From: Thraustochytrium sp. TN22 | Lineage: Eukaryota; Sar; Bigyra; Thraustochytrida; Thraustochytriidae | Direction: 5' to 3' | Assembly: GCA_013306675.1 (NCBI GenBank) | Contig: JABLUY010000145.1 | Coordinates: 1-64,000, forward strand | Length of the DNA: 64,000 nt | Shown here: positions 44,867-47,086 of the stretch, one piece after another | How the letters are laid out: each line of letters starts with the position of its first letter | Numbering within the stretch: the first letter of the stretch is position 1 | Position numbers and translations under genes: made by a program | Notes under the pieces: model-generated | The model's database searches: none | Told to the model about the DNA's origin: nothing | The model's input: only the letters and a program-made list of their open reading frames with translations

Positions 44867-47086
44867 TTAGAGACTCCGAACCTGCGCCTCTGAGAGGAGC
44901 GTCAGCGGATGCGCGGCGCCGAAGTTTGCACTACGCGTTGCCAGCGCGGCACGTGCGAGAGCCTTGTCGTGGGTCGCCGCAGCGAGGTAGTACTGCGACG
45001 TGGCGGTGTCCGGATGGCGCAGGCCAAGGCCTGCCTTGCGGATCTCCAGCGACCGCTCCAGCGCGGCGAGCGCCTCTTTGCGCCGCCCGAGGCCAAGCAG
45101 GGCTCTGCCCTGCGCGAGATACGCAAAGCCGAAGCGAGGGTGAGACGCGTCCAGGTGCCCACGGAGTGTGGCGAGTGCCTCCTTCGCGCACTCCAGAGCC
45201 TCCTCATATCGCCCAAGGTCCGAGAGGACCAGCGCGATATAGTAGACTGTCACTGCAGTGTACTCATGGTCCGGCCCGAGCTGCTCCTTGAAGATCTCGA
45301 GCGCCTCTTGGAATTGGCGCAGCGCCGCATCGTTCTCGCCCGTGGCCTGCAGCACCTGCGCGATGCAAGCCATCGTGGTCGCTACTAAAGGATGACTGGG
45401 GCCAAGTCGATCGATTTCCAGGCCCAGCACCTTCCGGAACTGGCGCAGCGCTGCGTCGTACTCTCCCTTGGCCTGAAGCACTTGCGCAATGCAAGCCATC
45501 GTCTTGGTCACGTCGGGGTGGCTCGGCCCGAGCTGCTCCTTTCTGATCTCGAGCACCTCTTGGAATTGCTGCAGTGCCGCATCGTACTCGCCGCTATCCT
45601 GCAGCGTCTGCGCGATGGAAGCCATCGTGGTGGCTACTTCGGGATGTCGTCGCCCGAGCTGCTCCTGGCTGATCGCCAAGGCTTCCTGGTACAGCTTCAG
45701 CGCCTCGTCATATTTGCCTTGCCGCTGGAGAACTGTCGCCATGTTCTGCTTGGTGGCCGCGGCACTTGCGCTGTTGGGCCCAACGGCAGCATCGGCAAGC
45801 TCCAGCGCATGCGTATACATGTCCATAGCGTTGTCGTAGAGACCCAGGCTTGTGAACAGCCAGCCGAGGTTGTGCATGAGCCTGGCGAGGTCCAGATCGC
45901 TCTCTGATGCTTGGCGTCGCATCTCGACAATGCGGCGTGCAGTCTCGACCAGCCAGCGGCGGAGCTGGGCAAGGACCGTGCCGTTGAGATGGTGGAAGCC
46001 GCCCGGGAGCGAGCTCACGGAGTCGACAATCATCTGCATCTCCTCCTTCGTGTGACACTCGGCCGCGCCGAGGTCAAAGTAGGCGAGTGTGTCGATGATG
46101 TCGTCGGGCGTCCCGTCCTGCATGAGCTGGATGAAGCGGTCGTCCTGCCCAGGCGCAAAGATGAGGTCGAGATTCTGCCCGCACTTGACGGCGCCGTAGA
46201 CCTCCCACACGCACCACATGCGCGTCAGCGGGGTCGGGTGGTCCCACTTGTCGAAGAAGATGAGGCGTTCTGAGAAGTGCTCAATGGCAGCGTGCAGGCC
46301 GTGCGTGAGCAGCTCGTTCCGCTGCCGTCGGACCTCGGGCGAGAGATCTTCACCCCTGCCCAGAAGCTTGGGCTGGTTGGCACAGAAGATGTCCAGCCAT
46401 ACGTACGTGCGCTGCAGGTCGCGCTCGAGCGACACGTAGTGCGCGACGATGGCGTCGACCAGGTCGCCAAAGCTGCACTTGCGCGCCTGGCTCACGAAGG
46501 CACCGTCGAACGGCGCGCCAACCAGGTTCTCCCCACTCCTGAGCAGGACGTCGATATAGAACTCGCGCTCGCGCCGAGTCGCAGGGAGGACGAGGTGCTC
46601 GCACACGTCCTCGATGCTCCAGTCCGCACGCGCCTTGGCGGCGGCCATCTTCGGGTCAAAGACCACCTCGCCTTGCCCGTACGCGGCGGTGCCAATCAGC
46701 AGGCCGTCGGCGTGAGCCCCGCCCACGTGCACGGCAACCGTAGTGCCGGCATGCACGAGGGTCGCTGCGGCCCCTCGCTGGGTGGTCTCTACATCCTCCT
46801 CAAGCACGTACAGCTGTATGCCGGGGGCGCTGGTCTCCTCCAAGATGTCGGTCCAGATCGTCTGCAGCGCCGCCACGCTCAGTCCGCGGTACCATACGAT
46901 GTCGTTGCTCAGGCTGTCCTCCTGCGCCTGCTCCTGCGTCGCGGTGGCCCGCTGCACGACCTGCGCGGCCGCGGTTGCCGCGCCCGACGCGCGCCGCGCT
47001 GCCGCCGCGCCCATCGCGCCCGCTGCGCCCGCTGCGCGACTTGCGCGCCGCGTCAGCCGGCCCAGGCTCCTGCGCGCAGCGCCCAT
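44867..47086 (-). CDS. TIR-like domain plus tetratricopeptide-repeat protein
   Basis: 739 aa from ATG 47086 (context AACATGG); the frame extends to 47197 without ATG. Residues 1-55 are Arg/Ala-rich. Residues about 190-330 look TIR-like: AFVSQARKCSFGDLVDAIVA, then TYVWLDIFCANQ (228-238), GRGEDL, LHAAIEHFSERLIFFDKW and TRMWCVWEVYGA (289-299). This follows the plant TIR order, with WCVWEV aligning to WCLxEL, whose Glu (here 295) is the catalytic NADase residue. Residues about 400-720 are at least seven kinesin-light-chain-type TPRs with about 42-residue spacing (ALKLYQEALAISQEQLGRRH and similar). There is no NB-ARC domain between. An NAD-consuming or scaffold signalling role is inferred. Confidence 0.82.
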   Translation of the reverse strand: MGAARRSLGRLTRRASRAAGAAGAMGAAAARRASGAATAAAQVVQRATATQEQAQEDSLSNDIVWYRGLSVAALQTIWTDILEETSAPGIQLYVLEEDVETTQRGAAATLVHAGTTVAVHVGGAHADGLLIGTAAYGQGEVVFDPKMAAAKARADWSIEDVCEHLVLPATRREREFYIDVLLRSGENLVGAPFDGAFVSQARKCSFGDLVDAIVAHYVSLERDLQRTYVWLDIFCANQPKLLGRGEDLSPEVRRQRNELLTHGLHAAIEHFSERLIFFDKWDHPTPLTRMWCVWEVYGAVKCGQNLDLIFAPGQDDRFIQLMQDGTPDDIIDTLAYFDLGAAECHTKEEMQMIVDSVSSLPGGFHHLNGTVLAQLRRWLVETARRIVEMRRQASESDLDLARLMHNLGWLFTSLGLYDNAMDMYTHALELADAAVGPNSASAAATKQNMATVLQRQGKYDEALKLYQEALAISQEQLGRRHPEVATTMASIAQTLQDSGEYDAALQQFQEVLEIRKEQLGPSHPDVTKTMACIAQVLQAKGEYDAALRQFRKVLGLEIDRLGPSHPLVATTMACIAQVLQATGENDAALRQFQEALEIFKEQLGPDHEYTAVTVYYIALVLSDLGRYEEALECAKEALATLRGHLDASHPRFGFAYLAQGRALLGLGRRKEALAALERSLEIRKAGLGLRHPDTATSQYYLAAATHDKALARAALATRSANFGAAHPLTLLSEAQVRSL

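Follow-up and report, generated by a model that had tools for sequence, protein, structure and literature searches.

Plants, animals and fungi are known to possess large repertoires for recognition that change fast, and such repertoires have been proposed for brown algae. Two of the signalling domains of concern here are TIR, whose catalytic Glu has a role in NAD+ cleavage, and HET, which is a fungal death domain. The protein family described below, from the genome of the protist Thraustochytrium sp. TN22, touches on several such systems without coinciding with any of them. According to PMC4986451, PMC10197012 and PMC12881547, the fungal HET-domain NLRs (HET-E, HET-D, HET-R) and the HiC TPR/ANK/WD NLRs share with it a HET-similar N-terminus, C-terminal repeats with high internal identity and concave-face variation, and membership of large gene families; unlike them, it has neither NACHT nor NB-ARC, stays below the Pfam HET cut-off, belongs to a protist host and includes an extra conserved N-terminal region. 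The plant TIR-NLRs and their TIR domains (PF01582, PF13676) offer the same order of elements, a WCxxE motif with the conserved Glu and a match through a mixed TIR profile, whereas the family matches a plant-only profile at chance level, has no Pfam TIR or NB-ARC, and carries TPRs instead of LRRs. In SARM1, with its ARM-SAM-TIR architecture, a repeat region is likewise joined to a TIR-type domain without the NLR NTPase, but our family has no SAM or ARM, shows the opposite domain order, and is large and variable. Diversified TPRs also occur in the candidate receptors of stramenopiles; those NB-ARC proteins undergo exon shuffling, whereas the present genes are single-frame and lack the NTPase. 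Thoeris ThsB, the commonest PADLOC match of the family (found for 6 of the 51 members with E 0.01 at best, hence weak), is bacterial and has no TPR array. Lastly, kinesin light chain and NPHP3 have TPRs of the same 42-aa type, although the family has a different N-terminus and is expanded and variable.

The gene at issue lies in a 64-kb stretch of DNA (the window, 67% GC) of a 37.9 Mb genome assembled in 453 contigs. It is a single 739-aa open frame on the reverse strand, 44867-47086, that begins with an ATG at 47086 and has no internal stop. The motif segments that the initial annotation had named are present in this frame, and the Glu singled out there is correctly numbered as E295, within WCVWEV. 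The features of the gene are the following:

44867..47086, reverse strand: whole coding frame, 739 aa, ATG to stop (translation)
47027..47086, reverse strand: basic N-terminal segment, residues 1-20, with the pattern RSLGRL ([RKHS]SL.. pattern in paralog tails)
46535..46921, reverse strand: conserved N-terminal region, residues 56-184 (K151, R153, W156, E159 and D160 invariant in 51 sequences)
46112..46519, reverse strand: predicted TIR/HET-like core, residues 190-325 (TIR and HET profile comparison with controls)
46373..46402, reverse strand: VWLDIFCANQ strand, residues 229-238, a HET-like motif (aligns with FVWIDFSCIDQ of L034)
46202..46204, reverse strand: E295 codon (alignment with the TIR Glu; E in 63/65)
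45902..46099, reverse strand: conserved helical tail of the N-terminal domain, residues 330-395 (I353, G363 and R376 invariant in 51 sequences)
45008..45889, reverse strand: seven 42-aa TPR units, residues 400-693 (Pfam TPR_12/TPR_10; repeat listing)
45272-45674: tandem repeat of period 126 inside the TPR array (repeat scan)

The neighbours of the gene in the window are ordinary: eight ORFs were scanned and six matched Pfam, namely HSP70, SET/MYND, NIPA, prolyl oligopeptidase, RPB6 and DHHC. Residues 1-399 of the protein have no Pfam match at E<=10, no relatives in the PDB by single-sequence or profile search, and no meaningful match in NCBIfam (best E 0.09). At its extreme N-terminus, the [RKHS]SL.. 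pattern recurs in 31 of 49 paralog tails, and the best helical moment of the tail reaches <=0.05 against shuffles in 18 of the 49; speculatively, the basic segment might be a membrane, organelle or homotypic signal. Between this segment and the core, residues 56-184 (46535-46921, reverse strand) form a second block conserved throughout the family, with the pattern K.R..W..ED, to which the TIR profiles show no similarity.

The gene is far from alone in its genome. A comparison of residues 1-399 with the genome itself gave 108 matches at E<=1 (107 if the threshold is tightened to E<=0.001), which merge to at least 99 loci on 79 contigs; this figure is a lower bound for which the best candidates were scored, and some of the entries are fragments or carry an internal stop. 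When the 399-aa N-terminus was aligned with 50 paralogs (32-73% identical), 26 columns proved invariant, including W230, D232, R289, W291, C292, W294 and E295, and because these columns hold across the window protein and all 50 paralogs, the motifs are not due to chance. With 14 more divergent paralogs added, in a 65-sequence profile that is a selection of members and not every locus, W230 and D232 are retained in 65/65 and position 295 is E in 63/65, the exceptions being A in L066 and Q in L078. The first of these exceptions lies among six divergent family matches that follow one another on one strand at G000 C448:21813-42028. Over residues 185-395, dN/dS ranges from 0.16 to 0.84 in 38 close paralog pairs (>72% identical) and is 0.25 between the window gene and paralog L005, so the N-terminal domain is under purifying selection. 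Relatives were absent from the viral contigs, prokaryote genomes and plasmids searched, and a phage search returned 11 records whose best E of 0.3 was taken as chance. The window gene is one member of this ~99-locus family, which probably encodes intracellular receptor-like proteins.

What the N-terminal domain resembles was addressed by profile comparison. In hhalign, the 65-member family profile matched a 15-sequence TIR profile with a score of 43.9 (88.8%, E 2.5e-6 for one template). The TIR profile combined four plant, three own-genome and eight plasmid-record TIRs; 10 of 24 plasmid TIR matches were retrieved, and of these L062 (a near copy of L060) and L063 (a broken plant-like TIR) were left out of the profile. 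Reversed-profile controls reached at most 0.22% against the 88.8% of the real TIR profile, and none of 100 column-shuffled TIR profiles did as well (maximum 22.2). A 51-member family profile gave a weaker match (66.3%), and with both family profiles E295 aligns on the TIR Glu. Against this match, the score drops to 22.2 once the bacterial TIRs are removed, a four-sequence plant-only profile is at chance (1/100 shuffles as good), and 11 of the 15 single TIR sequences fall inside the null at 0.05 or more, with ROQ1, RPV1, RUN1 and one own-genome TIR lying beyond it. The label of a plant-type TIR is rejected, since the plant-only profile is at chance, whereas a distant relationship to TIR domains is supported, both in general and in the HHpred-type check that had been proposed, where the mixed set beats reversed and shuffled controls. 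The accompanying claim that the Glu position of the TIR NADases is kept holds as well, for the residue is E in 63/65 and aligned with the TIR Glu.

The best single-sequence match of the family profile is a HET domain, that of L034, with a score of 38.3 (79.7%) for this one HET sequence, itself recognised by Pfam at E 1.6e-6. None of 300 unrelated pieces of window ORFs was as good (maximum 20.4), nor was any of 100 shuffles (maximum 23.0). PMC4986451 links HET to TIR by HHpred, reports HET homologs in stramenopiles and haptophytes, and describes a HET-TIR similarity that drops off after helix C, and much the same drop is seen in the window family. By curated models, the family belongs to neither the ordinary TIRs nor the ordinary HETs: the two are absent among the 25 of 27 Pfam families listed for the 51 members at E<=1; the window protein matches no Pfam TIR (PF01582, PF13676) at E<=10; the genome has at least 114 TIR_2 matches over cut-off, and not one of the 108 family matches shares any position with them; and in that genome L034 alone, and no family member, exceeds the HET (PF06985) cut-off. 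The N-terminal domain is thus best described as distantly TIR/HET-like, not as a TIR, its fold being a prediction from profiles. As for L034 (G000 C110:186306-186632), its HET domain is followed in frame by what look by eye like MORN-type repeats, and a family member at C110:174496 shares its contig.

Whether such a domain acts as an enzyme is a separate matter. NADase activity may be present, and we put it forward tentatively, from the alignment of E295. A TIR/HET-like adaptor without enzyme activity, in which the Glu would be structural and the proteins would merely recruit partners after recognition, is less likely but survives better than the other alternatives: the TIR match is distant, W230, D232, W281 and W294 are conserved as much as E295, and two members (L066 and L078) do without the Glu, whereas the invariance of E295 in 51/51 and its alignment with the TIR Glu speak against it.

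The absence of an NTPase, also claimed by the initial annotation for what it took to be an NLR-like protein, extends to the whole family, as NB-ARC and NACHT are found at none of its loci. The genome holds two NB-ARC and eight NACHT matches, seven of the latter over cut-off. It is otherwise rich in TIRs and poor in NLR cores, with at least 114 TIR_2 domains against two NB-ARC and seven NACHT over cut-off; some TIR_2 domains stand beside other repeats, ARM-like in L001 and ankyrin-like in L003, as judged by eye.

The C-terminal array is of the type first assigned to it. The window protein matches TPR_12 at E 1.1e-64, TPR_10 at 4.4e-55 and the NPHP3 TPR at 2.6e-35, and TPR_12 is matched by all 51 family C-termini examined; the TPR_12 and TPR_10 models are associated with kinesin light chain. 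The kinesin-light-chain N-terminal region itself is not recognised, residues 1-399 having no Pfam match at E<=10. In 18 of 50 family arrays, the repeats reach an identity of 85% or more across 100 aa, a count from which L048 was omitted (array too short), in which stretches of N (L008, L014) did not score as identity, and in which 10 arrays end at the edge of the locus. The array of the window gene, at 0.64, is not among the 18. The criterion is that of PMC4986451, in which 21.2% of fungal NLR TPRs meet it, as compared with 0.4% of such repeats at large in plants, 0.8% in animals and 1.2% in dikarya.

In six genes among L007-L014 that had a sufficient number of repeats, the repeats within a gene are 0.75-0.94 identical against 0.66-0.70 for the best match between genes, despite N-terminal domains that are 83-97% identical, and this excess of within-gene likeness argues for concerted evolution of their repeats. 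In L005, L006 and L015, repeats are not clearly more alike within than between genes, and the window gene, at 0.55 within and 0.52 between, shows hardly any concerted signal; with its shared domain and array, it may be an older and more fixed member. Nearly perfect 42-aa TPRs also occur in L081 (G000 C111:459200-460400), in a frame without a family match, which is possibly a truncated relative or a repeat reservoir; as its repeats resemble those of the family, it was rejected as an independent TPR-only control. Runs of N inside the most homogenised arrays (L008, L014) and a 1755-aa frame at G000 C7:73960-77337 with many consecutive TPR_12 matches of equal score render the repeat copy numbers of the assembly doubtful, and according to PMC12222747 the assembly of arrays of this kind from short reads can be unreliable.

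The positions at which repeats differ were read from 376 pairs of repeats within the same protein that share 75% identity or more, drawn from 20 proteins, none being the window protein; exactly 42-aa repeats were taken and others skipped. The pairs are not independent, and pN/pS was obtained by pair counts rather than by a codon model. Differences pile up at positions 10, 32, 13, 14, 42, 3 and 6 of the unit. For the register, we take A9, A21 and A28 of the unit to be TPR 8, 20 and 27, by TPR consensus. Positions 3, 6, 10, 13 and 14, five of the seven most variable, then become TPR 2, 5, 9, 12 and 13. These lie on the concave face, where TPRs vary generally, as stated in PMC1261162. The chance that all five groove positions fall in the top seven of 42 is ~2.5e-5 by hand arithmetic. 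At the groove, mean pN is 0.334, compared with 0.037 for the 35 positions that are not among the top seven. Groove pN is higher than the whole-repeat pS in all 19 proteins that contributed at least three pairs, and higher than the same-site pS in 13 of these 19. Apart from 32 and 42, no helix-B or loop position shows a difference in more than 14% of pairs (protein-averaged), so that general surface drift is not the cause of these groove differences, which are mostly amino-acid changes and were observed in about 20 paralogs. A fungal NLR TPR array likewise has selected sites on the concave side (PMC4986451). The receptor-like nature proposed at the outset for the window protein gains from this repeat evolution in its paralogs, but not from its own array, which at 0.64 contributed none of the 376 pairs.

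Two further explanations, both improbable, bear on these repeats. In the first, the proteins would be kinesin-light-chain/NPHP3-like cargo or ciliary adaptors whose N-terminus is lineage-specific and which play no part in immunity; this agrees with the TPR_12 and TPR_NPHP3 type of the array but sits badly with ~99 loci, with grooves that diversify while repeats homogenise, and with 399 N-terminal residues that match no library. In the second, of similarly low standing, slippage or gene conversion would make the repeats uniform and relaxed constraint would let the groove vary, with no role for the family in recognition; the homogenised repeats of the TPR-only L081 and the modest same-site excess of 13/19 fit this account, although apart from two other positions only the groove varies, the rest of helix B shows differences in no more than 14% of pairs (protein-averaged), and beyond the seven most variable positions pN/pS is 0.38. 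Least probable of all is an alpha/beta fold without relation to TIR or HET whose motifs are look-alikes, for which the chance-level plant-only profile, the score of 22.2 without bacterial TIRs and the AlphaFold models made without an alignment (residues 180-399 and 188-326, pLDDT 41 and 47) could be cited, but the mixed TIR profile and, taken separately, the HET sequence each beat all shuffled controls, and secondary-structure propensities averaged over the alignment, a crude and weak method, place strands and helices in roughly TIR order.

We consider it likely, by analogy, that the family is a receptor-like repertoire that works like the fungal HET-repeat receptors without their central NTPase, and we infer an immune role for it. 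The N-terminal TIR/HET-superfamily domain would be the signalling part, and the groove of the 42-aa TPR superhelix would bind a variable peptide or protein; binding would free or cluster the N-terminal domains, which might then act by NAD+ cleavage with E295 as the catalytic residue or by recruiting other TIR proteins as partners (the genome has at least 114 ordinary TIR_2 matches), with defence, self/non-self recognition or cell death as the outcome. The fuller picture, of at least about 100 NTPase-less TIR/HET-TPR receptors with grooves diversified by homogenisation and selection, beside ~100 further TIR genes, is offered with less assurance. If true, a TIR/HET-type domain and a variable repeat groove may suffice, without the NTPase switch that defines the NLRs; a single-celled protist would carry an innate recognition system of plant-NLR scale, so that the targets of free-living cells become testable; and an unclassified domain, possibly NAD+-cleaving, would underlie the repertoire.

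Among the results listed from the openly accessible literature on TIR, HET and TPR in thraustochytrids and related protists, which has most subscription journals outside its scope, a description of the family was not found, nor did a literature search by the family's motif letters yield one. The TIR atlas of PMC13142454 took six Pfam models of the TIR clan as its starting point, and the word HET is absent from its main text; seeded in this manner, the atlas may lack the family. The domain is one that surveys starting from Pfam TIR models may miss. The ~99 genes suggest an undescribed immune-like recognition system: in each, a domain distantly related to a known cell-death signalling domain is coupled to an array of repeats, and in sister genes of the window copy the binding groove appears to be selected for continual change.

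Some observations made along the way concern other loci. The genome contains a 3044-aa frame over the cut-off for PfaA (polyunsaturated fatty acid synthase), adjoined by a divergently oriented 2083-aa frame, and this arrangement is typical of thraustochytrids. Among the plasmid records, the broken TIR of L063 (CP036489.1, Rahnella aquatilis) is 48.6% identical to an approximate tobacco N query and resembles plant DNA sitting in a bacterial record. On the plasmids of L060 (Agrobacterium) and L062 (Neorhizobium), a gene annotated as a TRAFs-binding domain protein lies just upstream of the small TIR gene, and the two genes are possibly a paired system.
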